Source: Psychrobacter sp. 4Bb (GTDB lineage Bacteria; Pseudomonadota; Gammaproteobacteria; Pseudomonadales; Moraxellaceae). From it: a stretch of DNA of 49,203 nucleotides. The notes under the pieces were generated by a model that saw nothing but the letters and a program-made list of their open reading frames with translations, searched no databases and was not told the DNA's origin. Below, piece after piece: positions 14,942-37,644 of the stretch (positions are counted from its first letter, which is position 1; each line of letters opens with the position of its first letter). The position numbers and the translations under genes were made by a program. The DNA lies in NCBI RefSeq assembly GCF_002836735.1, contig NZ_PJAS01000065.1, forward strand, positions 1 through 49,203, in the 5' to 3' direction.

Positions 14942-15826
14942 CTAATATGCAGACTGCTTACCCCAATCATAAATACCGCGTTTGTAAGCATAAATCAGCA
15001 TGATTAAGCCGGCGATAATCATCGGCGCGCTTAAGATTTGCCCTTTGGTCATCCAACCTAATAATATGAATCCTTGGTCAGCATCTGGCTGGCGGAAGAA
15101 TTCAATGATAAAGCGGCTGATGCCATAGCCTAGTAAGAATACAGCGGAGGCGGCCATACGTGGACGTGGTTTTGATGAATACCACCATAAGAATATAAAT
15201 AGCAGCAGACCTTCGGCAAAGGCTTCATATAGCTGTGATGGATGACGAGGCAATATGTATTGACCATTGACTTCAATCATCAATTCTTGCAATTGTGGAT
15301 TGCTCTGTAATTGCTCCATATCAAACGCCGCGGCTTGCGGAAAGTAGGTCAGCCAGTTATAGCCACCGTCTGAGACGCGACCCCATAATTCGCCATTGAT
15401 ATAGTTGCCGATACGCCCAAACAGTAAGCCGGTTGGTACACAAGGAACGATAAAATCGAATACTTGAAAGGTAGTCTTTTTATATTTACGGGCAAAGAAC
15501 CACATACCTAGCATGACGCCGATAAAGCCGCCGTGGAAAGACATACCGCCTTCCCAGACTTTTAATATATAGGCAGGGTTTTGGAGTAATTCACCGAACT
15601 GATAAAACAGCACATAGCCAATACGACCGCCTAAGATGACACCAAGCGCGCCATAAAAGACTAAGTCAGAGACCATGTCGGTGGTCCAATTGTCGCGTTT
15701 GGTACTGCGATACCAAGCCAAACCGTAAGCGGCAGCAAAGGCTAGCAAATACATTAGCCCATACCAGTGCACTTCCAATGGACCCAAGGAAAGCGCTACG
15801 GGATCATACTGAGGATGAATCATCAT
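14942..15826 (-). CDS. lgt: Lgt, prolipoprotein diacylglyceryl transferase
   Basis: A 294-residue inner-membrane enzyme that attaches diacylglycerol to the lipobox cysteine of lipoprotein precursors. The family signature GRIGNYINGELWGR is at residues 137-150, the HGG motif at 98-100, and about seven membrane segments are seen. Length is normal. It is usually a single essential chromosomal gene, so a plasmid copy is notable. It sits convergent with nothing, upstream of copS on the same strand, at the edge of the copper island, which encodes a lipoprotein with an LAAC lipobox (19994-20632). Confidence 0.95.
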   Translation of the reverse strand: MMIHPQYDPVALSLGPLEVHWYGLMYLLAFAAAYGLAWYRSTKRDNWTTDMVSDLVFYGALGVILGGRIGYVLFYQFGELLQNPAYILKVWEGGMSFHGGFIGVMLGMWFFARKYKKTTFQVFDFIVPCVPTGLLFGRIGNYINGELWGRVSDGGYNWLTYFPQAAAFDMEQLQSNPQLQELMIEVNGQYILPRHPSQLYEAFAEGLLLFIFLWWYSSKPRPRMAASAVFLLGYGISRFIIEFFRQPDADQGFILLGWMTKGQILSAPMIIAGLIMLIYAYKRGIYDWGKQSAY

Positions 15827-16009
15827 AAAGGCACCATAATTATTGGTAATAGAATGTATGAAATAGGCTTATATAAGAAATTTTTTGTCCAACAATTGAA
15901 AAGTACAACTATCGCAAGTCAGAATCTCATCTTATGGATAGAGAGACCTTCCAAGTAAACTCGCCTTCGATCTAATCTGAGCGGTTCATAGACAGTATGA
16001 AGGTATTTA

Positions 16010-17482
16010 CTACCTGGCAATCAACAACTTTACAGCAACCTCAAAAAGACACTCATCTTTGATAGTAATACTAACTTTGCCATTATGAGCATTGGCGATA
16101 GCTTGCACAATAGATAAGCCTAAGCCTGTTCCTGAATGCATCGTATTCGTTTTATCATGACGATAGAATCGCTCAAACAGTTTATCGGCTTCAATCTGAT
16201 TTAATGGTTTGTCTAGACGGTTGGTCATAGTTATTCTTAACCAGAGCTGCTCTGGGGATTGAATATCGTCTTTTGGCGCATTAAGCGAGGTGCTTGAAGT
16301 GAGGACAGTAGCGGATATCATAATAGTGCTATTACTAGCCGCATAATGAATCGCATTTGACATCAGGTTGGCAAACAGCCGTTGCAATAAGCCTTTATCA
16401 CCTAGTACTGTTTTAAAATCACCCGATTTTTCAAAGATTATCTCACGATCCTCAGCAATCATCTCATAATAATCTATAAGCTTTGTGATCAAGCTCTCTA
16501 TATCGACATGACTGATTTGCGAATCACTCAGCTCTTTTTGAGTTTTTGCCAGTAATAACATATCGTTAATCATGGCGGATAACTGCTTTAACGTATCATG
16601 CTGATGATGCAATTGCTCAATGTATTCGTCGCTTTCTCTTGGCTTAGTTAACATGACTTGCGTTTGCGTACTCAGCGTCGCTATTGGCGTACGTAGCTCA
16701 TGGGCGATATTGTCTGAAAACCGTGATAATGATTCAAAGTTACTTTCAAGCTTGACCATCATAGAATTATAAGACTCCGTTAGTGGACGTAATTCTAACG
16801 GCATATCGCCAACCACAATTCTTTCATCTAACCTTTGAAGATTAATGCCTTTCATCTTTTGTACGATAGTAGCTAGGGGAGCAAAACCCCAGTGTACACT
16901 TAGTGCTGCTACTGAAACCAATAATAAGGTAATGGCGATAAGTATCAAGCTCAGCTGGCGATTAAACTGGATAAGATATTGATGATGCACATCGCTAGGT
17001 AGAGCAATAAATGCCAAAACCTCTTGATGTGTAATGATAATGGCTCGGTAATGCCTATTATTTATCTTGATCATAAACTGCTGATCGCGATAGTCCTGCA
17101 ATAGTTGTAACAAGCTAAAATCTGCCGGTAGATCATTGATGAAATTACTGGGATCGCTGGATAATAATTTGCCATTTTTATCTGATACTAAGGTTTTTAA
17201 ATCATAATCCAGCCAAGAAGAATGTAGATGATTGGCATCAATTAGCGCTTGCGATTTTGATACTGTGAATGGTTCTATGTGATCTTCCAAACTAACCATA
17301 CGTTTACGCAGGTTAAAAGCTGCATGGGTAATAATCTCTGAGTCCATTTGCTCAAAGTGCTCGTTAACAGAGCGCTGAACCCATATATAAATAACAACTT
17401 GAGAGATAACAACAAATATTGTCAGTAAAAAAACAGTACGCCATAACAGTGACCAACGCCGATTCTTAGATTTATGTCTCAT
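16010..17482 (-). CDS. copS: copper-responsive sensor histidine kinase
   Basis: From ATG 17482 the kinase has 490 residues and overlaps the end of copR by 11 nt. Two membrane segments (about 15-35 and 175-197) bracket a periplasmic sensor domain of about 140 residues. A HAMP region follows, then the dimerisation box SDNIAHELRTPIATL with phospho-acceptor His about 261, an N box (LMSNAIHYAAS) and the G box HSGTGLGLSIVQAIANAHNG. It belongs to the CusS/CopS heavy-metal group. It should sense periplasmic Cu(I) and phosphorylate CopR. The copper assignment comes from the adjoining resistance genes. Confidence 0.9.
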   Translation of the reverse strand: MRHKSKNRRWSLLWRTVFLLTIFVVISQVVIYIWVQRSVNEHFEQMDSEIITHAAFNLRKRMVSLEDHIEPFTVSKSQALIDANHLHSSWLDYDLKTLVSDKNGKLLSSDPSNFINDLPADFSLLQLLQDYRDQQFMIKINNRHYRAIIITHQEVLAFIALPSDVHHQYLIQFNRQLSLILIAITLLLVSVAALSVHWGFAPLATIVQKMKGINLQRLDERIVVGDMPLELRPLTESYNSMMVKLESNFESLSRFSDNIAHELRTPIATLSTQTQVMLTKPRESDEYIEQLHHQHDTLKQLSAMINDMLLLAKTQKELSDSQISHVDIESLITKLIDYYEMIAEDREIIFEKSGDFKTVLGDKGLLQRLFANLMSNAIHYAASNSTIMISATVLTSSTSLNAPKDDIQSPEQLWLRITMTNRLDKPLNQIEADKLFERFYRHDKTNTMHSGTGLGLSIVQAIANAHNGKVSITIKDECLFEVAVKLLIAR

Positions 17483-18218
17483 TTGATGCCAGACTGTCTT
17501 TATTAATACTATCGTCGCCCATGCCACTATCCACGTCGACAGCCAGTGGCTCTAACTTGTAGCCCATTCCGCGTACCGTATGAATCAGCTTTATATCAAA
17601 TCCATCATCAATTTTTATCCGCAAGCGCCTTATAGCCACGTCAATGACATTCGTATCACTTTCAAAGTTTACATCCCATACTTGCGAGGCGATCACAGTG
17701 CGCGGCAGTACCTCACCTTGACGTTCTAAGAAAAGTTGTAATAAAGCAAACTCTTTAGCAGTCAATTTTATATTAGTGTTGCCTCTATGAACGGTGCGTT
17801 TGGCAATATCCATTTTCAGATCAGCTATGTGTATGACCGAGCTTTTATAATCAGATTGATTGGCACGGCGCAATAGGCTTTTTATTCGGACAATTAGCTC
17901 GGCAAAAGCAAAAGGTTTGGTCAGATAATCATCGCCACCAATTTCAATGCCTTTGATCCGATCGATTAAATCATCTTTAGCGGTTAAAAATAAAACAGGC
18001 GTATGCTTTCCAGCAGCACGGTAGCGCTGTATCAGCTCAAAGCCGCTGACGTCAGGCAGCATCACATCCATCAAAACCACACTAAAATCTTCAGTCATTA
18101 ACGCATGATAGCCATCTAAACCTGTCATGTGATGATCCACGATGAAGCCTGCTTCACTTAAGCCTTTTTTTATATACTCGCCTAGTTTCAACTCATCTTC
18201 TACCAGTAGTATTTTCAT
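17472..18218 (-). CDS. copR: OmpR-family response regulator for copper
   Basis: A 248-residue regulator with a receiver domain (acidic pair EDE 7-9, phospho-Asp51 in VVLMDVMLPD, conserved Lys in LTKPFAF) and a winged-helix DNA-binding domain (RTVHRGNTNIKLTAKEFALL, then VIDVAIRRLRIKIDDGF and IHTVRGMGYKLE). A tail of about 20 acidic and Ser residues extends past the usual end. It is first in a copR-copS operon that diverges from the copper genes. Repeated TGACAAAAA motifs in the divergent promoter are likely binding sites. Confidence 0.92.
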   Translation of the reverse strand: MKILLVEDELKLGEYIKKGLSEAGFIVDHHMTGLDGYHALMTEDFSVVLMDVMLPDVSGFELIQRYRAAGKHTPVLFLTAKDDLIDRIKGIEIGGDDYLTKPFAFAELIVRIKSLLRRANQSDYKSSVIHIADLKMDIAKRTVHRGNTNIKLTAKEFALLQLFLERQGEVLPRTVIASQVWDVNFESDTNVIDVAIRRLRIKIDDGFDIKLIHTVRGMGYKLEPLAVDVDSGMGDDSINKDSLASNET

Positions 18219-18268
18219 AGTAACCCCTCAACACGATTATGATTATTTGACATCCTAATCAATATAGA

Positions 18269-18300
18269 TGACAAAAACGTTTTGTAACTGACAAAAATGT
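18269..18300. promoter_or_regulatory. candidate CopR box (direct repeat)
   Basis: TGACAAAAACGT (18269-18280) and TGACAAAAATGT (18289-18300) are 20 bp apart, two helix turns, in the divergent copR / 18446 promoter region. CusR/CopR boxes known elsewhere use TGACAA/TTGTCA half sites, and GATTGTCA follows at about 18318. The role is inferred. Confidence 0.6.
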
Positions 18301-18445
18301 CATGTACTCGTAATCAGATTGTCAGTCTTCATTTGCTAATCTATATGAATGAAACATAGTTGCTCGTTCCTAATATCTAGCTACTACGAATTATTTTCAC
18401 AGGTAATCAATTTAAACGCCTAATAACTTACAAAAGAGGTTTTAT

Positions 18446-19233: not shown

Positions 19234-19824
19234 ATGAAATTTTTATTGGGTGCGCTCTTTACCGTATTTGTGGCAATCGTTGGCGTGTTTGCGGTTGTTA
19301 CTAGTGGTGTTGTCAATGTGGGAGCTGACCAAGAGCATAGCCCAATGATGTTTAGCTTTTTGGAAACCGCTCGCAATCGTTCCATAGCAAATGCCAGTAA
19401 AGATATTGTGGTACCAGACTTAGAGAAGGTCGATATCATTTCTGGGGGCGCGGACTATAAGGATATGTGTGCAGGCTGTCACTTGTCTCCGGGAGTGGCA
19501 CAAACTGACTTTAGTGAGGGCTTATATCCAAAGCCGCCCAACTTTACCAAGGCTGATATTGTCAAACGTTATCAAACAGAAGACGGTGCAAAGCAAGGCT
19601 TTTGGGCAATCAAGCACGGTATTATGGCATCTGGAATGCCTACGTGGGGTGCTTCTCATGACGACGCTAGAATGTGGGCAATGGTAGCCTTCATTAGATC
19701 GTTACCTGAATTAGATGAAGCTCAGTACACGATGCTAACCACTAGGATAGATGGCGATATGATGGACATGTCATTTGACGGTGATATGAATATGTCGGAT
19801 GATGAATCTGGAATGCAGCATTAA
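19234..19824 (+). CDS. membrane-anchored c-type cytochrome
   Basis: A 196-residue protein with an N-terminal membrane anchor (about residues 3-25) and one heme-c site CAGCH at 79-83. The likely distal ligand is Met135 in ASGMPTWG. The C-terminal tail is rich in Met and Asp (DGDMMDMSFDGDMNMSDDESG), like the copper-binding repeats of CopB nearby. It may pass electrons to or from the multicopper oxidase or oxidise Cu(I); this is inference. Heme attachment needs the Ccm system, part of which is encoded at 33110-37644. AGGAAA precedes the start. Confidence 0.85.
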   Translation: MKFLLGALFTVFVAIVGVFAVVTSGVVNVGADQEHSPMMFSFLETARNRSIANASKDIVVPDLEKVDIISGGADYKDMCAGCHLSPGVAQTDFSEGLYPKPPNFTKADIVKRYQTEDGAKQGFWAIKHGIMASGMPTWGASHDDARMWAMVAFIRSLPELDEAQYTMLTTRIDGDMMDMSFDGDMNMSDDESGMQH

Positions 19825-19993: not shown

Positions 19994-20632
19994 ATGAGAC
20001 ATTACACACATGTGCTTTCTAATGGACATAGCTGGTTATCCAGTCGTGTCCTTTTATTGGTGGTGACATCGTCACTCTCGTTAACGCTAGCCGCTTGCAG
20101 CCAATCTAATACCAGTGGCTCTGATTCTCAACCAGTAAAGGTTGAACAGTCTGCTACCCAGAATGCACAAGTACAAAATGAAAGTTCTGCTCCTACAAAT
20201 GCTCCCGTTAACAGCTCGTCATCATTACTCAAAAACGTCTCAGCCACAGTTTATAAAGATGCCAACTGCGGCTGCTGCAAAGAATGGGTAGGCTATGCCG
20301 AAGGTCATGGTCTAAGCGCAACTGCGCAAGACGTTACAGATTTATCTTTATTTAAAGAGCGTTACGGTGTCCCGCAGCAAATGCGCTCTTGTCATACCGC
20401 CGTCACTACTAATGGTTATGTTTTTGAAGGTCACGTTCCTGCTAAACACATGGCTGAATTCTTAGCAAATCCTCCTGCACAAGCTATTGGACTTGCCGTA
20501 CCGAGTATGCCGGTTGGTAGCCCCGGTATGGAGTATGAAGGTAAATTCATGCCCTATAAAGTCATGCAATTGAACAAGGATGGCAGCACTCAAGTGTATG
20601 CGGCTATTGAGTCGCCAGCGCAGCAGATGTAG
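19994..20632 (+). CDS. DUF411 metal-binding lipoprotein
   Basis: A 212-residue protein with a lipoprotein signal; the lipobox LAAC puts the lipidated residue at Cys35. A Ser/Gln-rich linker follows. The DUF411 domain spans about 80-205, with CGCC at 91-94, SCHTA (Cys132, His133), the GHVPAKHM motif and VPSMPVGSPGME. DUF411 proteins occur widely in copper and silver clusters and are taken as periplasmic metal binders. AGGAG lies before ATG 19994. Maturation requires Lgt, which the same island carries. Confidence 0.88.
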   Translation: MRHYTHVLSNGHSWLSSRVLLLVVTSSLSLTLAACSQSNTSGSDSQPVKVEQSATQNAQVQNESSAPTNAPVNSSSSLLKNVSATVYKDANCGCCKEWVGYAEGHGLSATAQDVTDLSLFKERYGVPQQMRSCHTAVTTNGYVFEGHVPAKHMAEFLANPPAQAIGLAVPSMPVGSPGMEYEGKFMPYKVMQLNKDGSTQVYAAIESPAQQM

Positions 20633-20699: not shown

Positions 20700-22397
20700 A
20701 TGAATAAAAACAGATTTAACCGCAGGCGTTTTTTGACAGGGTCATCCACCTTGCTCGGCGCGTCGATGCTATCCACACTACCGACGATGGCTAATAGTGC
20801 TTTAACTAAAAGCCAAAATGTCGTAGTCAATAGTGATAGAGCCGATCACATTGTACCTATACTGACAGGCAAAGAGTTTGATCTTTATGTCAGTGAGAAG
20901 ATGATAACGGTCAACGGCAAGTCAAGCATGGCAACGCTGATAAATGACTCACTGCCTGCGCCAACGCTTAAGATGCAAGAAGGCGATACGGTCACCATTC
21001 GAGTCCATAATCAGCTGAATGAGTCGACCTCTATTCACTGGCATGGCCTCTTAGTGCCGTTTGAGATGGATGGCGTACCGGGTATCAGCTTTGATGGTAT
21101 TCCTGCGGGTAGCACCTTCACGTACAAATTTAAACTGATACAGTCAGGCACTTATTGGTATCACTCGCATACTGGCTTCCAAGAACAAACCGGTATGCGC
21201 GGGGCCATCGTCATTGAGCCGAAAGGGCGCGAACGTCATCCTATCGAGGAAGACCATGTCATTTTGCTCAGTGATTGGACGCATCGCGATCCGCATAATC
21301 TGCTAAAACTACTTAAGCAGCGTGCTGACTTTGATAATTATCATCTGCCAGACTTTAAAAAGCTATTGTCCGATATTGCCGAAACGGATCTGAAAACCGC
21401 GTTTGATAAGCGCAAAAGTTGGAATCAGATGCGCATGATGCCCACTGATTTTACGGACTTGTCGGGTGAAAACACATTTACCTACCTTATCAATGGCAAA
21501 ACCACAGCGGCTAACTGGACGCAACTTGTCAAGGCTGGACAGCCTGTCAAACTACGTTTTATTAATGGTTCAGCGCAGACGATATTTGATGTACGCATCC
21601 CCGGCCTAAAAATGAAAGTCGTCGCGACGGATGGGATTGATGTCAGTCCCGTCGATATCGATGATTTCCGTATTGGGGTGGCCGAGACTTATGATGTCAT
21701 CGTGACGCCCACTAAAGACGCGCATACCATATTTGCTCAAAACATAGATCGGTCAGGCTATGTTGCGACAACGCTTGCTACCAAAAAAGGTGCTCGTCCT
21801 GCGATACCTGCTATGGACAAAATCGAATGGCTGACGATGGCCGACATGATGGGCGCCATGGGATCGAATGGCTATAACGCTAAACATGCCAAAACAGAAT
21901 ATGACTTTAAGTCCGATATGCGCGTTGATAGTCCGCGTATGAACCTTGATGACCCTGGTATTAATCTACGTAACATTGATAGAAAGGTTTTGAATTATAG
22001 TCAGTTGCGCTCTGTCGGCGATGAGATAATGGCAGAGCAGCGCAAACCCACCAGAGAGATTGAAATACATCTGACGGGAAACATGGAGCGCTATATTTGG
22101 GCTCTAGACGGGGTTATGTTCAAAGATGCCGCACCGGTCAATATTAAGCCGGGTGAGCGCGTACGTATTACCTTAGTCAATGACACCATGATGAATCATC
22201 CCATGCATTTGCATGGTATGTGGAGCGATCTGCGGATGCCTTCAGGTGAGTTTCAAGTACGTAAGCATACGATAATGGTACAGCCTGCACAAAAGATAAG
22301 CTTTGATGTCACCGGAGAAGCTGGCAGATGGGCATGGCATTGCCACTTGCTCTATCACATGGAAGCAGGGATGTTTAGAGAAGTTGCCGTTGTTTAA
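20700..22397 (+). CDS. copA: CopA/PcoA-type multicopper oxidase
   Basis: A 565-residue periplasmic copper oxidase. The N terminus has a Tat signal (NRRRFLTGSS, then a hydrophobic stretch ending near PTMANSA). All four copper-ligand motifs are present: HWHG 113-116, HSH 155-157, HPMHLHG 500-506 and HCHLLYHMEAGM from 547. It oxidises Cu(I) to the less toxic Cu(II). Export must be folded and through Tat, whose genes lie downstream in the island. It is followed within 26 bp by copB. Confidence 0.96.
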   Translation: MNKNRFNRRRFLTGSSTLLGASMLSTLPTMANSALTKSQNVVVNSDRADHIVPILTGKEFDLYVSEKMITVNGKSSMATLINDSLPAPTLKMQEGDTVTIRVHNQLNESTSIHWHGLLVPFEMDGVPGISFDGIPAGSTFTYKFKLIQSGTYWYHSHTGFQEQTGMRGAIVIEPKGRERHPIEEDHVILLSDWTHRDPHNLLKLLKQRADFDNYHLPDFKKLLSDIAETDLKTAFDKRKSWNQMRMMPTDFTDLSGENTFTYLINGKTTAANWTQLVKAGQPVKLRFINGSAQTIFDVRIPGLKMKVVATDGIDVSPVDIDDFRIGVAETYDVIVTPTKDAHTIFAQNIDRSGYVATTLATKKGARPAIPAMDKIEWLTMADMMGAMGSNGYNAKHAKTEYDFKSDMRVDSPRMNLDDPGINLRNIDRKVLNYSQLRSVGDEIMAEQRKPTREIEIHLTGNMERYIWALDGVMFKDAAPVNIKPGERVRITLVNDTMMNHPMHLHGMWSDLRMPSGEFQVRKHTIMVQPAQKISFDVTGEAGRWAWHCHLLYHMEAGMFREVAVV

Positions 22398-22422
22398 TAA
22401 ACCTTCGAATATGAGCCTTATT

Positions 22423-23568
22423 ATGAAAATATATAAAGTAGGTCTACCGTTTATTGGCATGTCATCTTTGATGCTACTAATGTCACCTTTAGCAAACGCT
22501 GCTGAGATGTCGAACATGGATCACAGCAGCATGGACATGTCTGGTATGGATATGTCAGATATGGATCACAGCAGCATGGATATGTCGGGCAATATGTCAG
22601 ATATGGACCATAGTGGCATGGATATGTCAGGCGATATGTCAGATATGGACCATAGTGGCATGGATATGTCAGGCGATATGTCGGATATGGATCATAGTGG
22701 TATGGATATGTCAGGTGACATGTCAGATATGGATCACAGTGGCATGGATATGTCAGGCATGGACCATAGCAAAATGGATATGTCAGGCATGGACCATAGC
22801 AAAATGGATATGTCAGGCATGGACCATGGCAGTATGGATATGTCAGGTACGCAAGGTGGTAAAGCTCCAGCTGATGCTCGCAGTCCTGACTATTCAAACG
22901 GCGTTCCCTATGGTCGCTTTGGTAAGCCTGTGATGATGGATAGCTTACCGTTATGGGGTGTGTCAGTAGAAACTTTGGGCTATCAGTTTGAGAATGACCA
23001 AATCGATTTTGAGTTTGATACGTGGTACGGTACTGATAGTAATCGTGTCACTCTACGCAGTGAAGGTAGTGCTCAAACTAACGATGATAAAGAGATCGAT
23101 AGCTTAACCTCACTCGCTTATTGGAAGCCGCTCGGTATCTTCTGGAATGGAGAAGCGGGTATTGCTTATAATACTGAAAACGATAAGTCCGCAATCATGG
23201 CAGGCATTGTTGGTACGGCGCCGTACTTCGTTGAGACTGACGCAAGAGCTTATCTATATACTGATGGTCAAGTCCAGCTTGATCTTGGGACAGCGTACGA
23301 GTGGCGCTTAGATCAGCGTTGGGTGGTCAGACCAGAAGTGCAGTTGACTGCTTTCAGTAAAGATGATACTGACAACGGTATTACTAAAGGTTTTAATGAG
23401 CTTGAAACTGAAGTTCGGTTAGCTTATGAAACCCTAAGTCGTCAATTATCACCCTACGTTGGTTTTAGTTATGCATCAGCCTTAGGGGATGCACGAGACT
23501 TACGCCGCCAAGAAAACGTAGCCGTTGATTCTAATAGTCTGACTGCTGGTGTGATGTTTTGGTTCTAG
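22423..23568 (+). CDS. copB: CopB outer-membrane copper-resistance protein
   Basis: From ATG 22423 the protein has 381 residues; a longer frame overlapping copA was rejected because this start gives a clean signal peptide (MSSLMLLMSPLANA). Residues about 27-145 are a Met/Asp/His/Ser repeat tract (MDHSGMDMSGDMSD units). The last 230 residues form a CopB/PcoB beta-barrel domain: YGRFGKPVMMDSLPLWGV, then antiparallel strands to a C-terminal aromatic (GVMFWF), as in outer-membrane barrels. It may sequester copper or help move it across the outer membrane. The repeat tract is unusually long. Confidence 0.92.
   Translation: MKIYKVGLPFIGMSSLMLLMSPLANAAEMSNMDHSSMDMSGMDMSDMDHSSMDMSGNMSDMDHSGMDMSGDMSDMDHSGMDMSGDMSDMDHSGMDMSGDMSDMDHSGMDMSGMDHSKMDMSGMDHSKMDMSGMDHGSMDMSGTQGGKAPADARSPDYSNGVPYGRFGKPVMMDSLPLWGVSVETLGYQFENDQIDFEFDTWYGTDSNRVTLRSEGSAQTNDDKEIDSLTSLAYWKPLGIFWNGEAGIAYNTENDKSAIMAGIVGTAPYFVETDARAYLYTDGQVQLDLGTAYEWRLDQRWVVRPEVQLTAFSKDDTDNGITKGFNELETEVRLAYETLSRQLSPYVGFSYASALGDARDLRRQENVAVDSNSLTAGVMFWF
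22509..22850 (+). repeat. in-frame tandem repeats inside copB
   Basis: About four near-identical 42-bp units encode MSDMDHSGMDMSGD, and three 27-30-bp units encode MDMSGMDHSK. The strong nucleotide identity between units suggests recent slippage or unequal exchange, so the copy number may vary between strains. Confidence 0.85.
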
Positions 23569-27195: not shown

Positions 27196-29805
27196 ATGAA
27201 ACATATTGCCGATGAAAAATCTATCAAAGGTGGTCAGTACGATAAAGTACCAGAAAATTATAGTGGTACGGTTTATATCTGCCCGATGCATCCTGAGGTT
27301 AGAGATACTGAGAAGAGCGATTGTCCGATATGCGGCATGTTTCTCAAACCTGAAGACGAGGTTGCTGAATCCAACAGTAATGAGGGCAGTCATGCGCATT
27401 GTCATAAAGCGGATGCTAATAATAGTACTGAGTTAAAGTCTGTCGAAGGCAATAAGTACGACAAGATACCAGAAAATTATAACGGCACGATTTATATTTG
27501 TCCTATGCATCCAGAAGTAAGAGATGTTGAAAAAAGTGACTGCCCAATATGTGGCATGTTTCTTAAACCTGAAGACGAAGTTGCTAAAGATGATAGTCAC
27601 GCTAGCTGTCATGGAAAGGATACTGATAGTAGCGGAGTAAAATCTGTTAAAGGCGGTAAATACGATAAAGTACCTGCTGATTACGATGGCACGGTATATA
27701 CCTGTCCTATGCATCCTGAAGTGAGAGACGTTAGAAATAGCGGTTGTCCGATATGTGGTATGGCGCTTGAGCCCGAAACGCTTACTATCGGTGAAGAGGA
27801 CACCTCAGAGCTTGACGACATGACTCGTCGTTTTTGGATATGTACCGTGTTGACTGTACCGCTATTAATATATGTGATGAGCGGTATGTTTGGAGTTGAC
27901 TTTAGTCAGTATGGTATCTCTTCAAAGATCTTACAATGGGCTGAGTTAGTGCTCGCGACCCCTGTAGTGCTTTGGGGCGCCGCCCCGTTTTTCGTCCGTG
28001 GCTGGCAGTCTATAAAAAGCCGCAATCTAAATATGTTTACCTTGATTGCGATAGGCGTAGGCGCTGCTTATATTTTTAGTATTGTCGCGACCTTTTTTCC
28101 CGATATTTTCCCAGACAGTTTCAGAGATGCCTCTGGTCAAGTCGGAGTCTACTATGAAGCGGCAGCGGTCATTGTGACCTTGGTGCTACTGGGTCAAGTA
28201 TTAGAGCTCAAAGCTAGAAGTCAAACTTCAGGTGCGATTAGAGCTTTGCTTGAGCTCGCACCACCAACCGCAAGACGTGTCGATGAAAACGGTGAAGAAG
28301 TCGAAGTCTCGCTTGATGAGGTCGTCACTGGCGATAAGCTACGGGTTAAACCAGGTGAGAAACTACCCGTAGATGGTACAGTGATCGATGGTAATAGTAA
28401 TGTTGATGAATCAATGGTGACGGGTGAGCCAATCCCTGTATCAAAAGTAGCAGGAGATACAGTGACTGGTGGTACGGTAAATGGCACCGGAACGCTATTA
28501 GTCGAAGCGGTCAATGTTGGAGCAGATTCAGTATTATCTAAAATTGTACAAATGGTTGCTGAAGCCCAGCGTAGCCGCGCACCTATACAGAAATTGGTAG
28601 ATCAAGTGGCGGGTTGGTTCGTACCTATTGTTATTGTCACCTCTATCATAACCTTTATTGTCTGGGCGATATTCGGCCCTGAGCCCGCTATGACCTATGC
28701 TTTGGTTAACGCGATTGCGGTACTGATTATTGCTTGTCCTTGTGCCCTTGGTCTAGCGACGCCGATGTCCATTATGGTTGGTACCGGCAAAGGCGCGCAA
28801 AACGGCGTCCTCATCAAAAATGCTGAAGCGTTAGAGAGTATGGAAAAAGTCGATACCATTGTCGTCGACAAGACCGGAACACTGACCGCTGGTAAGCCCG
28901 AGCTTACCGCAATTGATGCGCAGGTAGGTCAAGATGAAGACGAGTTCCTCGCATTGGTAGCCTCAGTAGAAAGCGCTAGCGAGCATCCTTTAGCAGAAGC
29001 TATCGTTAGAGCAGCTCAAGAAAGATCACTCATTATTCCTAAAGCTACTGACTTTAATTCGACTACTGGCGAAGGCGTACAAGCCGTGGTCGATGGTAAG
29101 AAAGTCGCTATTGGTAACTCTAAGCTTATGGAAAGCCTAAATAGTTTTGATAATGAGCTGTCCACTAAAGCTGATGTCCGTAGAAAAGACGGTGAAACGG
29201 TAATGTTTGTGGCTATAGACGGTAAAGCTGCTGGTATTATTTCAGTTGCTGACCCTATTAAACCAAGCACTAAAGAGGCTATTTCACTGCTTCATGACGC
29301 AGGTTTAAAAGTTGTGATGCTAACCGGTGACAACGAAAAAACTGCTCAGGCAGTCGCTAATAAATTAGGTATTGATGAAGTTCATGCGGATGTTTCACCA
29401 GAGGATAAAAACCGTATCGTCAAAGAAATGCAAGACAGCGGTAAATTGGTCGCTATGGCGGGTGATGGTATCAACGACGCACCAGCGCTAGCGCAAGCTA
29501 ATGTTGGTATCGCTATGGGAACCGGTACCGATGTGGCGATGGAGAGTGCGGGCATTACCCTGCTAAAAGGTGATTTAATGGGCATTGCCAAAGCTTATAA
29601 GCTTAGCCACGCCACCATGCGCAATATCAGACAGAATCTGTTTTTTGCCTTTATCTACAATGCACTTGGTGTTCCTATTGCCGCAGGTGTGCTCTATCCC
29701 ATATTTGGGCTTCTGCTCAGTCCGATGATAGCAGCGGCAGCGATGAGCTTGTCGTCATTCTCGGTGATTGCTAACGCGCTGCGATTGCGCCGTTTGAAAC
29801 TATAA
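27196..29805 (+). CDS. copA: P1B-type copper-exporting ATPase with three HMBD modules
   Basis: From ATG 27196 (AAGGAG 27183-27188) the pump has 869 residues; a TTG seven codons earlier was rejected. The N terminus has three heavy-metal-binding modules (about residues 15-55, 88-127 and 155-194), each with CPMHPEVRD and CPICGM, separated by His-rich linkers ([18 protein letters not shown]). Then come eight membrane helices with CPC in [12 protein letters not shown] (about 513), DKTGT (about 558), SEHPLAEA (about 595) and [10 protein letters not shown] (about 755). It drives Cu(I) out of the cytoplasm. One such module is usual, so the triplication is odd. Its symbol matches the oxidase by convention only. 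Confidence 0.95.
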
Positions 29806-29885: not shown

Positions 29886-30170
29886 ATGGGCAGCTTTTCT
29901 ATTACACATTGGCTGATTTTATTGGTCGTAGTGGTGGTCGTATTTGGTACTGCCAAGCTTAAAAATGCAGGTAAAGATTTAGGCGGTGCGGTGAAGGGTT
30001 TTAAAGAAGCGGTCAAAGATGAAGAACCCGAGAATGCTCGCAAAAATCATGTGCTTAGCCATGAAAATAGTACGCCAGCTGCAAGTAATGATTTAAATAC
30101 GCGTGTAGGTAATCAGGCTGATGATATGGAAATCAGCCCTATTTCCACTGATGACCAGCCTAAAGTATGA
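29886..30170 (+). CDS. tatA: TatA twin-arginine translocase subunit
   Basis: A 94-residue protein: one short N-terminal membrane helix ([20 protein letters not shown]), then the TatA amphipathic helix ([20 protein letters not shown]) and an unstructured acidic tail. It forms the pore of the Tat system, which exports folded proteins. AAGGA lies about 8 nt before ATG 29886. It is the first gene of a tatABC operon on a mobile replicon, downstream of the copper ATPase. Confidence 0.93.
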
Positions 30171-30225
30171 AGCGCGCCGCTTATAAATAGCGGCACTAAG
30201 TAGTCTATTAATATATGTGACTGTT

Positions 30226-30612
30226 ATGTTTGATATTGGGTTTTCCGAATTACTCTTGTTTGGCGTCATTGCTTTAATCGTATTGGGCCCAGAAAAACTG
30301 CCGCAAGCCGCACGTACCGCTGGGCAATGGTATGCCAAACTGCGCCGTACAGTATCCACTCTACAATCTGAAATAGAAGCTGAGCTTGATCTAGCTGAAA
30401 CACGTCAACAAATGCAAAATGAACTTGCGAAAATCCGTCAGACCGAGTCGGATATGAAGCGCGAATTAGCAGAAATGCGTGGCAGTATGCAAAAGTTTGA
30501 GCAGTCACAGAACCAAAGCCTAGACGCTTCACATCAGTCAATCACCCCTTATGATAAAGACCATCAACAGAATACTACCTCCTCGTTCATTAAACAGGAG
30601 GCGGATCAGTGA
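30226..30612 (+). CDS. tatB: TatB twin-arginine translocase subunit
   Basis: From ATG 30226 the protein has 128 residues and starts MFDIGFSELLLFGVIALIVL with the TatB Glu in the membrane segment, followed by GPEKLPQAARTAGQWYAKL and a long charged helix. A GTG three codons upstream was rejected. TatB works with TatC to recognise twin-arginine signals. The stop TGA overlaps the tatC GTG by 4 nt. Confidence 0.92.
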   Translation: MFDIGFSELLLFGVIALIVLGPEKLPQAARTAGQWYAKLRRTVSTLQSEIEAELDLAETRQQMQNELAKIRQTESDMKRELAEMRGSMQKFEQSQNQSLDASHQSITPYDKDHQQNTTSSFIKQEADQ

Positions 30613-31478
30613 GCCTATTTAAACGGCAAAAAAGTCGACAAGAAAAAATAACAGATATAGAGTTTGAGGCGCCAACAGATACAACACAGAATAGTGAGTC
30701 TGGAGATACGTTAGGTACGCTTGGCGATATGCCTATTACCGGACATTTAATCGAGCTGCGTACGCACTTAATAAGAATATGCGTGGTCGTCTTAATTATA
30801 TTCTTAGTATTGGTGGGATTTTCACGCGAGCTTTATAATCTTTTATCAGACCCATTAGTGGCGCAGTTACCCATCAATTCGACCATGATTGCCACTGATA
30901 TAACGTCAAACTTTATGGCACCCATTCGCTTAACGATATTCGTCGCCGCATTTTTAGCAATGCCTTATATCCTGTATCAAATTTGGTCATTTGTAGCTTC
31001 CGGCTTATATAAAAAAGAGAAGAAAATTGCCATTCCTGTACTGCTATCTTCGATATTTCTATTTTATGCTGGTGTTGCTTTTTCCTACTTTGTCGTACTC
31101 AAAGGGGTATTGAAATTTTTTATTATGTTCGCTCCGCAGAACGTTATACCAATGACCGATATTGACAGTTATCTGAGCTTTGCCCTCAAGCTATTTATGG
31201 TGTTTGGACTGACTTTTGAGATTCCAGTGGTTACCTTATTGCTGATAATGGCCGGAATCGTTTCTACTCAAAGTTTAGAAGATAAGCGTCGTTATATCAT
31301 AGTCGGCTGTTTTGGGATCGCCGCGGTAGTGACACCGCCTGATGGTGTATCAATGCTGTTGTTGGCGATTCCTATGTGGCTATTATTTGAGCTGGGTTTA
31401 CTCTTAGCAAAGATATTAATTAAAAATGAACGAAATAATGATTTAGTCTCAGGGAATGAAACATTAGAAAGTAGCTAG
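30609..31478 (+). CDS. tatC: TatC twin-arginine translocase core
   Basis: A 289-residue protein with the usual six membrane segments. After a hydrophilic N-terminal extension of about 40 residues comes the TatC signature MPITGHLIELRTHLIRI, and later FAPIRL-like and LSFALKLFMVFGLTFEIPV blocks. It starts at GTG 30609 with AGGAGG at 30596-30601, overlapping tatB. TatC binds the RR motif of the signal. The nearby CopA oxidase is the only clear Tat substrate in the window. Confidence 0.94.
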   Translation: MSLFKRQKSRQEKITDIEFEAPTDTTQNSESGDTLGTLGDMPITGHLIELRTHLIRICVVVLIIFLVLVGFSRELYNLLSDPLVAQLPINSTMIATDITSNFMAPIRLTIFVAAFLAMPYILYQIWSFVASGLYKKEKKIAIPVLLSSIFLFYAGVAFSYFVVLKGVLKFFIMFAPQNVIPMTDIDSYLSFALKLFMVFGLTFEIPVVTLLLIMAGIVSTQSLEDKRRYIIVGCFGIAAVVTPPDGVSMLLLAIPMWLLFELGLLLAKILIKNERNNDLVSGNETLESS

Positions 31479-33109: not shown

Positions 33110-35164
33110 ATGTTAATCACAGAATTGGGTTATTTTGCCTTGCTAGCCGCCTTAATCTTGGCGATTTTGCAGGTGGTATTACCAACGATAGGCGTTATGC
33201 GTGACCATGTTGCTTGGCAGCGTTTGGCACCGAGTTTGGCATGGGCGCAGTTTGCTGCCATGATTTTTTCATTTGTTGCATTGATGGCAGGCTTTTATTT
33301 TAATGACTTTAGTCTCGTCTATGTCACGCAGCATTCTAATACCTTGCTGCCTTGGTATTATAAGTTATCAGCAACGTGGGGCGGACACGAAGGCTCGCTA
33401 CTGCTATGGATGACGATCATGGCCACGTGGTGCGCGCTGGTCTCCTATTTTAGCCGTGGCTTACCGTTGTCGATGCGCGCGCGGGTACTCGTGATATTGG
33501 CCGGTGTGCAGGTCATGATGCTAGCGATGCTGATTTTTACCTCGTCGCCATTTGATCGTACCTTGCCCAATCTGCCCGTAGATGGGGTAGATCTCAACCC
33601 ACTTTTGCAGGATTTTGGGCTGATCGTTCACCCACCGATGCTGTATATGGGTTATGTGGGCTTAGCGGTGCCATTTGCTTTTTGTATGGCGGCATTGTGG
33701 GAAGGGCGTTTGGATGCAGTATGGACACGTTGGTCGCGTCCATGGGCGCTAGCGGCTTGGGGGTTTTTGACCGTTGGTATCGCTCTTGGCTCTTGGTGGG
33801 CGTATTATGAGCTTGGCTGGGGCGGCTGGTGGTTTTGGGATCCTGTAGAAAACGCCTCACTGATGCCTTGGCTTGCCGGTTTAGCCTTGCTGCATTCGTT
33901 GGCAGTGACTGAGAAGCGCGGTGTCTTTAAAGCATGGACCATTATGCTGGCTATCTTTGCTTTTGCCTTAAGTCTCTTGGGTACTTTCCTTGTACGTTCA
34001 GGGGTTATTACCTCAGTGCATTCGTTTGCCGCTGACCCCACTCGTGGTCTGGTAATTTTAGTGATTCTTGGCATCATCGTCGGTGGTGGTTTGCTGATGT
34101 TTGCGCTGCGTGGCTGGCGTTTGACGATTGAAAGTCAGTATCAACTGGTTTCGCGTGAGTCATTTTTAGTCATTAACAACGTCATCATTTTGATTGCAAC
34201 GTTAGTGGTATTGCTTGGTACCCTCTATCCTATCATTGCCGACGCCTTTAGCTTGGGTCAGGTATCGGTAGGTCCTCCGTACTTTAATGCGCTATTTGTG
34301 CCTTTAACATGGCTATTGCTGGTTGCCATGGGTATGGGCTCCAATATCCGCTGGAAACAAGATAAGCGTCCATTGTTAGGCGTTGGTATGGTCATTGCGG
34401 CGAGCAGTCTAGTATTAGCTGCAGTCATCACTTACTTTGTCAGTCCATCTGCCATGCTTAATATTGGTGTAACACTAGCAGTAAGTTTTTGGGTACTGTT
34501 CTGGATGGTGGTTGATTTCAAAGACAAAACCAAAAATGCACCAAGCTTTTTGCAAGGCTTAAATAAGCTGCGTTTAAGCTACTGGGGTCAGCAAACGGCA
34601 CATATTGGTGTGATTGTAGCGGTCATCGGTGTTGCCTTTACCAGTACCTTGAGTATCGAGCGCGATGTGGCATTGAGTGTTGGCGAAACGGTCCATGTCC
34701 AAGGTTACGACTTCACCGTTAAAGGCTTCCGCGAAGTCAAAGGCAGTAACTATGATGCGACCCAAGCTGAGGTCGAAGTGAGTAAAGATAGCCGTGCTGT
34801 GACTACGTTATACCCTGAAAAACGCAATTACATTATTAGCATGATGCCAATGACCGAAGCAGCGATTGATGACAGTCTGATGCGTGATGTGTACGTCGCA
34901 CTTGGTGAACCTATAGCTGAAGGCAGTAATAAATGGGCCGTACGTATTTATGTGAAGCCATTGATTCGTTGGATATGGCTCGGCGCTATTATTATGGCAT
35001 TGGGTGGTCTGCTGAGTATGCTTGATAGGCGCTATCGTCTCAAAACATCCAAGACCCCTGCACAAATTGCAGCGAGTAAGTCAGGCTTTACGACGGTTAC
35101 TGATTTAGATGTTAAAAGCACTACTAATAACACGACACTAATAGGGGAGAAGCAAAATGACTAA
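33110..35164 (+). CDS. ccmF: CcmF, cytochrome c heme lyase subunit
   Basis: A 684-residue membrane protein with about 14 segments. The heme-handling tryptophan-rich motif WGGWWFWDP is at 237-245, and conserved histidine regions (SATWGGHEGSLLLW, LIVHPPMLYMGYVG, VHSFAADPTRG) are in place. Length is normal. With CcmG, CcmH and CcmI it forms the ligation module that attaches heme to CXXCH in the periplasm. Its stop overlaps ccmG by 8 nt. The heme-delivery genes ccmABCDE are absent here. Confidence 0.96.
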   Translation: MLITELGYFALLAALILAILQVVLPTIGVMRDHVAWQRLAPSLAWAQFAAMIFSFVALMAGFYFNDFSLVYVTQHSNTLLPWYYKLSATWGGHEGSLLLWMTIMATWCALVSYFSRGLPLSMRARVLVILAGVQVMMLAMLIFTSSPFDRTLPNLPVDGVDLNPLLQDFGLIVHPPMLYMGYVGLAVPFAFCMAALWEGRLDAVWTRWSRPWALAAWGFLTVGIALGSWWAYYELGWGGWWFWDPVENASLMPWLAGLALLHSLAVTEKRGVFKAWTIMLAIFAFALSLLGTFLVRSGVITSVHSFAADPTRGLVILVILGIIVGGGLLMFALRGWRLTIESQYQLVSRESFLVINNVIILIATLVVLLGTLYPIIADAFSLGQVSVGPPYFNALFVPLTWLLLVAMGMGSNIRWKQDKRPLLGVGMVIAASSLVLAAVITYFVSPSAMLNIGVTLAVSFWVLFWMVVDFKDKTKNAPSFLQGLNKLRLSYWGQQTAHIGVIVAVIGVAFTSTLSIERDVALSVGETVHVQGYDFTVKGFREVKGSNYDATQAEVEVSKDSRAVTTLYPEKRNYIISMMPMTEAAIDDSLMRDVYVALGEPIAEGSNKWAVRIYVKPLIRWIWLGAIIMALGGLLSMLDRRYRLKTSKTPAQIAASKSGFTTVTDLDVKSTTNNTTLIGEKQND

Positions 35165-35807
35165 GTCTAATCATTTTTCCGAGCAACCCCCTGAAACAAA
35201 AGGTAATCGAACAATGAAAAAAAGCCAAATTAGAATATGGTTTTTGATCCCGCTGATCATCTTTGCTGCTGTTATGGTTATGCTTTATTTTCGTTTGGGG
35301 CAGCCGACTGAAATCGTAACCAATACCGCGCTTGAACGCCCAGTACCAGCGTTTGAGCTGCCATTGTTGTCCGATACCAGTCGGATCATGACCAATGACA
35401 ACTTACCTGATGAGCCCTTTTTGATGAATATTTGGGGCTCTTGGTGCCCAACTTGCGTTATTGAGCATCCTTTTTTAATGCAATTAGAAGAGCGCGGAGT
35501 CAATTTGGTTGGTGTTAATTACAAAGATGACATCGGTGATGCGCTAGGATATTTAAATCGTGGCGGCGACCCATTCTCCATGTCTATTCAGGATTTGTCC
35601 GGCCAGTTTGCCTTGGACTTAGGGTTGACGGGTGCGCCTGAGACTTTCACTGTCGATGGTGAAGGCGTTATTCGCCAGCACATTGTTGGTGAGATTAACG
35701 AGAGTAACTGGCAAGATCGTATTGAGCCTTGCTTAACGGTACTCAATGATGCCAATGATAATAACGTCAGTCCAGATGCGATTCAGGTTGAAGAGGTGTG
35801 CAAATGA
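35157..35807 (+). CDS. ccmG: CcmG/DsbE thiol-disulfide oxidoreductase
   Basis: A 216-residue protein, membrane-anchored (about residues 23-42) with a periplasmic thioredoxin fold. The active site is GSWCPTC (Cys97 and Cys100) and the conserved GAPETFTVDGEGVI follows. The start overlaps ccmF and has GGGGAGA 6 nt upstream; a second ATG at 35214 is possible. It keeps apocytochrome cysteines reduced for heme attachment. The N-terminal cytoplasmic extension is a little long. Confidence 0.94.
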   Translation: MTKSNHFSEQPPETKGNRTMKKSQIRIWFLIPLIIFAAVMVMLYFRLGQPTEIVTNTALERPVPAFELPLLSDTSRIMTNDNLPDEPFLMNIWGSWCPTCVIEHPFLMQLEERGVNLVGVNYKDDIGDALGYLNRGGDPFSMSIQDLSGQFALDLGLTGAPETFTVDGEGVIRQHIVGEINESNWQDRIEPCLTVLNDANDNNVSPDAIQVEEVCK

Positions 35808-36367
35808 TAGCCCTTTCAATAAAGGCCGTTACGATAAAAGTAGCGAGCTTAATACTTGCCTGTCTCCTAAGTGTGACCAGCTATGCGGCGATTGACGTCT
35901 ATGATTTTGATTCTGTCCAACAAGAAGCACAATACCGAGGATTGATCGAAGAGCTACGTTGCCCGAAATGCCAAAACCAAAACTTGGCAGGTTCTGATGC
36001 ACCGATCGCTCAAGATTTAAAGCAAAAAACCTACGATATGGTAAAAGACGGTCGTAGTGATGGTGAGATTCGCGCTTATATGCAAGAGCGCTACGGCGAT
36101 TTTATCAGCTACAAGCCGCCTGTACGTCCATCGACATGGATTTTATGGTTTTTTCCGCCATTGCTACTGATCGTATTATTGATAGGGTGGTTTTGGCAAA
36201 GCCGTCGCCGCCAGCTGGTAGCGAGCGGTCAGAGTAGAGTGACGGTAGATAATACCGCCTCGGAGCTGACTGCCGCCGAAAAAGCCGAACTTGATCGTCT
36301 GCTATCGCGTGCCAATAGCACCGATAATGACGCTCATGACACCACAAGCCCCGAGGACAAAAAATGA
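35804..36367 (+). CDS. ccmH: CcmH (CycL-type) cytochrome c maturation protein
   Basis: A 187-residue protein with a signal/anchor at the N terminus, the redox motif LRCPKCQNQNL (Cys53 and Cys56), the conserved SDAPIAQDLKQKTYDMV helix, and a C-terminal membrane helix (TWILWFFPPLLLIVLLIGWFW). It reduces apocytochrome thiols together with CcmG. ATG 35804 has AAGAGG upstream and overlaps the ccmG stop (ATGA), so translation is coupled; a GTG two codons earlier was rejected. Confidence 0.94.
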   Translation: MIALSIKAVTIKVASLILACLLSVTSYAAIDVYDFDSVQQEAQYRGLIEELRCPKCQNQNLAGSDAPIAQDLKQKTYDMVKDGRSDGEIRAYMQERYGDFISYKPPVRPSTWILWFFPPLLLIVLLIGWFWQSRRRQLVASGQSRVTVDNTASELTAAEKAELDRLLSRANSTDNDAHDTTSPEDKK

Positions 36368-37644
36368 CCATATTCTCTACTTTTGGCTTATTTATTGCCC
36401 TAAGCTTATTTATTGCACTGATACTAGCCCTCATCGTTATCATGCCATGGTTGCGAGCGTCACGCTTACGAGAGAAACCTGTCGATAACCAGTTACTAGA
36501 TATCAATATCGCCGTTTTTCGTGAGCGTTTGATAGAATTACAGTCCGATAAAGACAATGGCACGATTGATGACGCCCATTATCAAAATCAAAAAACGGAG
36601 CTTGAGCGTCAGCTATTGGATGCTCAGCGTGAAGTAACACCTATGGTCGCACCTGGTATCAAGATCCGTTTGATTATCATGGTATGGGTGCCAGTACTTG
36701 CAGGATTGGCTTACTTTTTGGTTGGTGACCGTACACCGGTGTTTGACTTGTGGACAGCAGAAGATAAAGTTGCCCAAGTAGCCGATGATTTATTAACCGG
36801 TAAGATTGACCAGCCACCAGCTTGGGCGATTGAAGATGGTACGCAATTAATCAGCGCGATGCAGACCAACGTTTATCGTCATGCCGATGATCCTGATCGC
36901 TGGATGCGTTTGTCAGAGCTGTTTTTATCGCTTGAAGCTACCGACTCAGCGATTGAAGCTTTGTCACGCGCTTACCGTCTGTCACCAGACAATGAAGAGA
37001 TTGCGACCACTTATGCGCAGATTAGCTTTTTTGCCAATAAAGGTCAGCTTGATGCCAGTAGCCGCCGTGTATTACAAGATGTCCTTGCCAAAAATCCACA
37101 GCATGAAGGTGCGCAGATGCTAATGGCAATGGGTGAGGCACGTGGTAGTAACTTTGCAGAAGCGCAAGGTTGGATTAAGCGTTTACGTGAGAGCATCGCT
37201 GCCAAACCAGGTGACCATAGTAAAGCGCTAGCGAGCCTTGATGAGCTAAGTGCTAATGTCATCGAGCAAGAGCAGCAAGCCGCGCAAGGTATCGAAGTTA
37301 CCGTCTCTATTGATGCGAGTCTATTACCATTGGTTAAAGCCAATGATGTGTTGTTTGTAGCGATACGTGATGTGAAAGGGGGCCCTCCGTTTGCCGCCAA
37401 ACGTTTACCTATTAGTATCATCAAGCAAGGTAAAGCCAGTATCCGTTTAAGCGATCTTGATGCGATGATGCCAGAACGCACGTTACAATCTGCCCGTAGC
37501 GACAAAACTCAGTTAGCAGTCGTTGCTCGTGTTAGCCATAGTGGGACTGCGTCCGCAGAGTCGGGTGATCTATCAGGTAACCCAGTAGTGATTAGCGCTG
37601 AACAGACTCAAGTTAATATTGAAATCAATCAACAGATCCCTTAA
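36364..37644 (+). CDS. ccmI: CcmI, apocytochrome c chaperone with TPR repeats
   Basis: A 426-residue protein. Two membrane helices at the N terminus (about 6-28 and 95-120) bracket a cytoplasmic coiled loop (VFRERLIELQSDKDNGTIDD). The periplasmic part has TPR helices (DDPDRWMRLSELFLSLEAT, then DSAIEALSRAYRLSPDNEEI) and a C-terminal beta domain (GPPFAAKRLPI). It presents apocytochrome to CcmF/CcmH. The start overlaps ccmH (ATGA), completing a tight four-gene operon. Confidence 0.93.
   Translation: MTIFSTFGLFIALSLFIALILALIVIMPWLRASRLREKPVDNQLLDINIAVFRERLIELQSDKDNGTIDDAHYQNQKTELERQLLDAQREVTPMVAPGIKIRLIIMVWVPVLAGLAYFLVGDRTPVFDLWTAEDKVAQVADDLLTGKIDQPPAWAIEDGTQLISAMQTNVYRHADDPDRWMRLSELFLSLEATDSAIEALSRAYRLSPDNEEIATTYAQISFFANKGQLDASSRRVLQDVLAKNPQHEGAQMLMAMGEARGSNFAEAQGWIKRLRESIAAKPGDHSKALASLDELSANVIEQEQQAAQGIEVTVSIDASLLPLVKANDVLFVAIRDVKGGPPFAAKRLPISIIKQGKASIRLSDLDAMMPERTLQSARSDKTQLAVVARVSHSGTASAESGDLSGNPVVISAEQTQVNIEINQQIP

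Follow-up and report, generated by a model that had tools for sequence, protein, structure and literature searches.

Why should a copper island on a plasmid-like contig of Psychrobacter sp. 4Bb carry its own copies of Lgt, TatABC and CcmFGHI, the enzymes of lipoprotein maturation, twin-arginine export and cytochrome c maturation? The contig in question, NZ_PJAS01000065.1 (C21 of genome G000, 3.36 Mb in total), is the window analysed here in its entire length of 49,203 bp. The link between such maturation genes and metal genes was found to be real and well above controls when the copies present in 70 genomes of the same genus were compared.

Maturation genes and their substrates on the contig

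The preliminary description of the island had placed Lgt, TatABC, CcmFGHI, a DUF411 protein, a multicopper oxidase (MCO) and a cytochrome c on it, and profile searches recovered each of these genes in place (Table 1). The three cargo motifs to which it had drawn attention, the LAAC lipobox of DUF411, the RRRFLTG twin-arginine signal of the MCO and the CAGCH of the cytochrome, were likewise found in the translations. A substrate is present in this copper module for all three routes, and LspA and Lnt are missing from it. The gene lgt lies downstream of cusS on the same strand with a gap of 183 bp, and tatABC starts 80 bp behind the copper ATPase gene with all three translocase genes in one unit. 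The overlapping genes ccmFGHI, which make up the late half of cytochrome c maturation, begin 244 bp after an ATP-grasp-like gene and have intact motifs (WGGWWFWDPVEN, WCPTC and LRCPKCQ). From a divergent region copR, cusS and lgt point to the left, and the genes from cytochrome c, DUF411, MCO and CopB onward point to the right in the order cop genes, copper ATPase, tatABC, ATP-grasp-like gene and ccmFGHI; operon membership is suggested by the gene spacing. CopA/PcoA (TIGR01480), CopB (PF05275) and the regulator (TIGR01387) all scored above cut-off, placing the cluster among those of pco/cop type.

Between copR and the cop genes lies a CusR/CopR-like box, the sole match without mismatch in the window to what we take to be the CusR/CopR consensus, and a similar box occupies the corresponding position in loci L046 and L053. 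By its sequence and position the box may serve copper regulation of copR-cusS-lgt.

C21 is a plasmid-like contig carrying the cop cluster together with Lgt, TatABC and CcmFGHI. Profile searches detected Rep3, a MobA/MobL relaxase and KfrA, in agreement with the earlier view that the island is mobile, and the copper island is flanked by transposases and a resolvase. The closest named relatives of the contig are plasmids of Psychrobacter and Moraxella and also Psychrobacter genomes. No overlap of 16–400 bases was found that would join its ends and mark it as a closed circle.

The earlier suggestion of selection for self-sufficiency was not borne out. Neither LspA (PF01252) nor Lnt (PF20154) was found on C21, where Lgt is the only one of the lipoprotein enzymes. 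CcmA, CcmB, CcmC and CcmE were absent among the 40 of 59 window open reading frames (ORFs) of at least 90 aa that were scanned with Pfam, CcmD being below the size limit of the ORF scan. PF01578 matches CcmF alone in the window, and the single CcmE match of the genome is on another contig (C29). With neither the early Ccm genes nor LspA and Lnt detected in the window, self-sufficiency is unsupported. No Lit-type transacylase was named among the same 40 ORFs, a scan that included no Lit-specific search.

Linkage of extra copies to copper markers in the genus

The search for Lgt, TatC, CcmF, LspA, Lnt, DUF411 and CopB covered an even sample of 70 genomes from the genus of the window, each with a completeness of 90% or more. 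A copy was scored as near a marker if its contig had a match to DUF411 or CopB no more than 15 kb away, the sole distance used, and an extra copy was any copy beyond one per genome, with partial matches counted (e.g. TatC in G014 and G050). Lgt, CcmF, TatC and LspA matches were found in 70/70 genomes and Lnt in 69/70. For the five maturation genes together, 126 of the 160 extra copies were near a marker (Lgt 15/17, TatC 21/26, CcmF 31/45, LspA 27/37, Lnt 32/35) versus 0 of the 201 copies in single-copy genomes (Lgt 0/53, TatC 0/44, CcmF 0/33, LspA 0/35, Lnt 0/36). For plasmid genes in general Rep3 served as the control: of its 172 matches 150 were listed, and 18 of the listed ones were near a marker. 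The co-occurrence of copper and maturation genes thus exceeds chance, as the preliminary description had anticipated. Some of the extra copies away from a marker are explained by Tor modules (G004, G012 and G046; see below).

The association was also seen at the level of contigs. Contigs with a listed Rep3 match were included if none of their matches to the genes searched for lay past position 200,000, which gave 140. A marker and a maturation gene were found together on 19 of these, a marker alone on none, a maturation gene alone on one and neither on 120; the lone maturation-only contig (G046:C14) is a plasmid with Tat, Ccm and TorC. All five maturation genes and copper markers shared one contig in 6/70 genomes (G018:C9, G041:C2, G056:C2, G059:C12, G061:C15 and G068:C3), four of these contigs being 44.8–62.0 kb long. 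In G050 all five genes, with a partial TatC, lie together on a large contig in a span of about 23 kb.

Host copies, trees and selection

The host has its own lgt and tatC about 15 kb apart on C49 and its own ccmFGHI on C12. A third ccmFGHI is found on C37 with lnt, DUF411, a CHAP protein, cadR, a heavy-metal P-type ATPase and lspA. Because of the cadR annotated in it we call this arrangement the cadmium-type module, the label cadA for the P-type ATPase being our own assignment. It is also carried on the plasmids pPspP2G3a and pPspP11G5a and on the M13 plasmid, of which pPspP2G3a and the M13 plasmid additionally carry lgt.

Trees of TatC, Lgt and CcmF were made by a quick method with support from the SH-like approximate likelihood ratio test (SH-aLRT) and no bootstrap; rows covering less than 75% of the query were dropped, and some elements are repeated among the rows (for example, G046:C14 is L014, 37,795 bp, and G056:C2 is the 4Dc plasmid, 59,859 bp). 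In the TatC tree (90 rows), 27 copper-island rows and L014 form one group with SH-aLRT 99, separate from the sampled chromosomal rows including that of the host. In the Lgt tree (45 rows), six plasmid rows and L044, labelled chromosomal, form a group with support 95 that is near Lgt from the chromosomes of P. maritimus and strains like it and distant from the host's own. The three host copies in the CcmF tree (58 rows) fall into three groups, copper, cadmium-type and chromosomal, and the Tor-module rows form a fourth. The comparison with chromosomal copies thus came out in favour of the earlier proposal: plasmid TatC, Lgt and CcmF do not cluster with the copies of their own host. Since the three trees show different histories, the blocks were not captured together from this host, and a single recent block capture from its chromosome is ruled out by the trees and identities together. 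Two cop-tat pieces filed under other organisms, L012 (Streptomyces cinereus) and L058 (a Planctomycetia metagenome-assembled genome), have a TatC within the Psychrobacter copper-island group and are probably contamination or misbinning.

Amino-acid identity between plasmid and host copies was 67–91% in 13 pairs. The motifs were the same where checked, and the Cys and His counts were nearly equal except in LspA, where the copies compared have 4 and 9 His. The ratio of nonsynonymous to synonymous substitution (dN/dS) was 0.009–0.29 in 14 pairs within the mobile clades of Lgt, TatC, CcmF, Lnt and LspA, and 0.03–0.13 against the host copies where dS was computable, although dS was then near saturation (1.3–2.7). 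The frames of the plasmid maturation genes are intact, and the low values point to working genes: Lgt, TatC and CcmF, and LspA and Lnt on the sister modules, are under purifying selection.

Cargo in cadmium-type and Tor modules

The proposal that each maturation route accompanies a cargo in need of it was upheld in part. It stands for the present window and for a module of trimethylamine N-oxide (TMAO) respiration in which Tat matches TorA and Ccm matches TorC. In L178 (G004, a 3.3 Mb contig), at 4519–17400, TorA, TorC and a TorD-like protein adjoin TatABC and CcmFGHI; TorA has a twin-arginine signal and scores 1486.5 bits with TIGR02164 (cut-off 1465), and TorC is pentaheme with five CXXCH motifs and 505.8 bits with TIGR02162 (cut-off 478.2). 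L178 also has a short frame whose LSAC resembles a lipobox; no Lgt adjoins it, and it was missed by the lipobox pattern, which can accordingly overlook such proteins. TatABC, CcmFGHI and a TorC-like cytochrome were found at L014:9305–18690, on a contig whose relaxase genes are 97–99% identical to those of the window, and TorA was not seen in the 20.9 kb L014 stretch. L181 (G012), at 707–9899, has CcmFGHI with molybdopterin and NapC/NirT-type proteins of matching lengths, and no Tat match.

The proposal does not stand for the cadmium-type modules as a whole. In these a DUF411 protein with an LFAC or LFSC lipobox is a match for Lnt and LspA, and, as matching would predict, neither Tat nor, by pattern, a Tat substrate was found. 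In the five cadmium-type sequences searched, one complete plasmid (L096, 23.9 kb) and four partial ones, CcmFGHI is present and no CXXCH frame of at least 40 aa was detected. Nor does it hold in other lineages, where the pattern detected no lipoprotein beside Lgt or LspA-Lnt in L102, L117, L183, L115, L112, L185 and L187. As a universal account, strict matching of route and cargo is ruled out by the cadmium-type modules and these other lineages; it is retained below as a rival.

Other lineages

Matches among PLSDB plasmid records, chromosome-size records included, numbered 453 for Lgt, 129 for TatC, 197 for CcmF, 289 for Lnt and 1227 for LspA. Heavy-metal genes were found beside a maturation gene in Halomonas, Dinoroseobacter, Roseovarius, Sulfitobacter, Phaeobacter, Stutzerimonas, Vibrio, Jiella, Paraburkholderia, Enterococcus, Lactococcus and Paenibacillus. 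Among 16 contexts outside Psychrobacter and Moraxella, chosen by us and judged by annotation, copper, cadmium or other heavy-metal genes adjoined in eight and not in seven, and one, in Novosphingobium, was ambiguous, with an MCO gene at 3–5 kb in an island of sulfur-related appearance. Four of these seven contexts resemble chromosome fragments filed as plasmids and were counted against a cross-lineage link, as was the lgt of Klebsiella grimontii with ars genes about 3 kb off. Of 16 Lgt records listed at even ranking steps nine were examined, one chromosome-size record and six from Enterococcus being left out, and all nine have copper or cadmium-type genes by annotation within 8–12 kb, in Lactococcus an MCO only. 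A general claim from TatC alone is weak, given that in the stretch examined around the plasmid tat of Acinetobacter pittii the annotation names no metal gene and that the tat of A. variabilis adjoins PhoX, with a cation transporter and cadR 5–6 kb off across insertion sequence elements.

Two further neighbours of plasmid lgt were observed. In Paraburkholderia fungorum (L112:6517–8882) secY stands directly before lgt, with a heavy-metal P-type ATPase about 3 kb off. DUF2933 genes adjoin lgt or lie no more than 3 kb away from it in Halomonas, Paraburkholderia, Enterococcus and Lactococcus (L102, L112, L185, L186 and L188).

Relation to known systems

C21 shares MCO, CopB, CopR/CusS and copper ATPase with pco/cop resistance (CopA/PcoA, CopB/PcoB, CopRS) and adds Lgt, TatABC, CcmFGHI, the ATP-grasp-like protein and the cytochrome c. 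Parts of this arrangement are already in print, namely lgt on copper islands of Listeria and Enterococcus and a predicted signal peptidase in the pbr operon. The lit2-lgt2 pair of Listeria monocytogenes and Enterococcus is, like lgt on C21, a second lgt in a mobile copper locus, and is reported to be copper-induced and co-transcribed with copper determinants (PMC8275575, PMC7387801); lgt is also present on a copper island of E. faecalis (PMC4511184). It differs in being Gram-positive and in having Lit2 as partner instead of LspA and Lnt, and Tat and Ccm are not mentioned in the available parts of these accounts. A lipoprotein-maturation enzyme in a plasmid metal operon is likewise described for the pbr lead operon of Cupriavidus metallidurans pMOL30, where pbrC is a predicted prelipoprotein signal peptidase described as fused to PbrB (PMC3431237). 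There the metal is lead and not copper and the step that of LspA only, with Lgt, Lnt, Tat and Ccm unmentioned in the part of the source available. Dinoroseobacter pDSHI03 resembles C21 in having CcmFGHI, with no CcmA-E annotated in the stretch examined, beside a regulator, an MCO, a P-type ATPase and cytochromes c, and the copper island of Roseovarius pTHAF8_a additionally has LspA and Lnt; these roseobacter islands differ in a CcmF only about 45% identical, in gene order and in having no Tat annotated in the stretches examined. The literature searched, outside of which most subscription papers lie, yielded no description of the combined Gram-negative kit and no paper combining tatC, copper resistance, ccmF and plasmid. 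The words lipoprotein, ccm and twin-arginine are absent from the main text of the paper on strains P2G3 and P11G5 (PMC4754876).

Features of the contig

The coordinates of the island are given in Table 1. The listed start of CopB overlaps the MCO gene, and the real start is probably further downstream. A Met/His/Asp-rich repeat array with units of 42 and 30 bases occupies 22516–22849 within CopB, whose open frames vary in length across the genus, perhaps due to such arrays. The ATP-grasp-like protein adjoins tatC in 21/22 copper-type loci and had 7314 matches among 7998 scored candidates, some of them named in their sources as circularly permuted type 2 ATP-grasp or RimK family; in Paraburkholderia an annotated ATP-grasp protein lies about 5.5 kb from the plasmid lgt. 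Elsewhere in the window a perfect 8-base tandem repeat, AATACTCA, is present in 15 copies at 40140–40261, and a single frame of 379 aa at 44683–45822, flanked by arsB on one side and on the other by a gene whose product has an ArsR-like helix-turn-helix, fuses ArsC to an NADPH-dependent FMN reductase domain. A CHAP-domain protein is common to copper and cadmium-type plasmids (window 12097–12876, L092:5810–6529 and L096:6316–7038), its gene adjoining cadR on the latter.

Table 1. Genes and putative regulatory box of the copper island on NZ_PJAS01000065.1
Feature	Position	Strand	Evidence
Lgt	14942–15826	-	PF01790, E 1.5e-78; TIGR00544 272.5 bits, cut-off 118.9
CusS-type sensor kinase	16010–17527	-	HisKA and HATPase_c above cut-off; CusS domain 22.6 bits, slightly below cut-off 24.1
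CopR/CusR-type response regulator	17472–18218	-	TIGR01387 300.6 bits, cut-off 279.2
CusR/CopR-like box	18269–18306		exact palindrome TGACAAAAATGTCA at 18289–18302 and a preceding imperfect tandem copy
Cytochrome c, single CAGCH motif	19234–19824	+	PF13442, PF00034
DUF411 protein, predicted lipoprotein, LAAC lipobox	19994–20632	+	PF04214; lipobox pattern
CopA/PcoA-type MCO, twin-arginine signal RRRFLTG	20700–22397	+	TIGR01480 739 bits; three Cu-oxidase domains
CopB, Met/His-rich repeats	22303–23568	+	PF05275
DUF305-domain protein	23664–24140	+	PF03713
Amino-acid permease family protein	24286–25629	+	PF13520
PEMT/ICMT-family methyltransferase	25759–26412	+	PF04191, PF04140
DUF5676 two-helix membrane protein	26510–26803	+	PF18926
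Copper-type P-type ATPase, three heavy-metal-binding (HMBD) stretches	27175–29805	+	TIGR01511 610.5 bits; PF00122, PF19335
TatA, TatB, TatC	29886–30170, 30217–30612, 30609–31478	+	PF02416 twice, PF00902, TIGR00945
ATP-grasp-like protein, 429 aa	31576–32865	+	no Pfam or NCBIfam match
CcmF, CcmG, CcmH, CcmI	33110–35164, 35157–35807, 35798–36367, 36364–37644	+	PF16327, PF01578, PF08534, PF03918, PF23914

Discussion

Extra capacity under copper load, one of the two reasons for the pairing named in the preliminary description, appears to fit the literature best. In the available parts of the papers concerned, copper treatment of E. coli is reported to mirror Lgt depletion, with a model in which the Lgt reaction is blocked by copper (PMC6538781), and a review counts cytochrome c biogenesis as one of the targets that copper has in the periplasm (PMC7558416). 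As copper is reported to disturb both, added capacity suggests itself, and we see about an even chance that the plasmid supplies supplementary Lgt, TatABC and CcmFGHI which keep exported copper-defence proteins maturing when copper blocks these steps. The supplementary kit perhaps also helps host proteins mature under copper. Cadmium is reported to lower cytochrome c in a strain that lacks CadA (PMC7283390); this supports the reading of Ccm weakly, because the effect is traced there to heme synthesis.

Under such a mechanism CopR would switch on copR-cusS-lgt under copper, and plasmid Lgt would lipidate DUF411. TatABC, encoded behind the efflux ATPase gene, would export the MCO, and CcmFGHI, fed by the early Ccm proteins of the host, would attach heme to the plasmid cytochrome. 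The kit would add capacity without replacing the host pathway, and LspA and Lnt on sister plasmids would complete the lipoprotein route.

Several observations weigh against this explanation. Copper clusters manage without the kit: for 43 of 64 CopB matches no copy of the five genes lies 15 kb away or closer, and the host itself has a copper cluster, on C7, that carries the same cargo as the plasmid (CopR, CusS, cytochrome c, DUF411, MCO and CopB) and no maturation gene within 17 kb. Nor is the pairing exclusively mobile, since CopB and a second TatC occur together on chromosome-size contigs, at chromosome-scale positions, in G030, G034 and G065. The plasmids share descent, and the counts given above are not phylogenetically independent. 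No exact CopR box was found in L097, L098 and L099, all with copR, nor upstream of tat or ccm in the window. Cys and His counts, with TatA outside the comparison, gave no clear sign of copper-proof enzyme versions. Tat is, to our knowledge, not a direct target of copper, which makes cargo demand the likelier reason for its presence, and the Tor module, which is unrelated to metals, fits cargo matching better.

That the blocks travel because the plasmid exports need them at any copper level, in hosts that are weak or mismatched in these routes, is unlikely on balance and yet deserves to be taken seriously. Each route in the window has its substrate, TorA and TorC accompany TatABC and CcmFGHI in L178, L014 has TorC with Tat and Ccm, and the cadmium-type modules, where the pattern finds no Tat substrate, have no Tat. 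The hosts, however, already have the routes throughout the genus, and the pattern detected no lipoprotein beside Lgt or LspA-Lnt at seven loci. Extra capacity is favoured because cadmium-type CcmFGHI was found without a CXXCH frame, the complete L096 included. It is improbable that the plasmid enzymes are specialised paralogues that prefer plasmid substrates or function in copper-loaded membranes where the host enzymes fail: their grouping apart from host copies and their purifying selection would agree with this, but the identities, shared motifs and near-equal Cys and His counts, LspA His excepted, bear no mark of changed specificity.

The transposases and resolvase at the island borders, and the apparent plain chromosome fragments in which some surveyed plasmid records hold such genes, are what would be expected if chromosomal genes had merely been captured by insertion-sequence-rich metal plasmids and carried without effect. 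With low dN/dS, a near-perfect association at the level of contigs and the repeated joining of metal and maturation genes in distant lineages, we regard such hitch-hiking as very unlikely. Slighter still is the chance that the purpose is to cap lipoprotein N-termini against copper binding, as proposed for Listeria Lit2, with Tat and Ccm secondary. Copper binding to a diacyl lipopeptide, described with a copper-induced lit2-lgt2 unit in the available part of PMC8275575, and the recurrence of Lgt, or of LspA with Lnt, beside metal genes in several phyla speak for it, but it leaves TatABC and CcmFGHI unexplained, and Lnt and LspA were not found on C21.

Mobile elements may spread resistance and respiration along with protein-finishing kits of their own. 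Tentatively, and with more doubt than assurance, mobile protein-finishing kits of Lgt-LspA-Lnt, late Ccm and Tat can be seen as a resistance class of target supplementation in many phyla, which also equip a TMAO-respiration module. If true, metal resistance would gain a layer beyond efflux and detoxification, in which capacity is restored at metal-blocked steps of envelope assembly, and the presence of lgt, lspA, lnt, ccmFGHI and tatABC on metal islands of unrelated bacteria would be explained. Such kits would then be a genomic pointer to the envelope steps that each metal damages in nature, and mobile cargo could be tied to the maturation capacity of its host.

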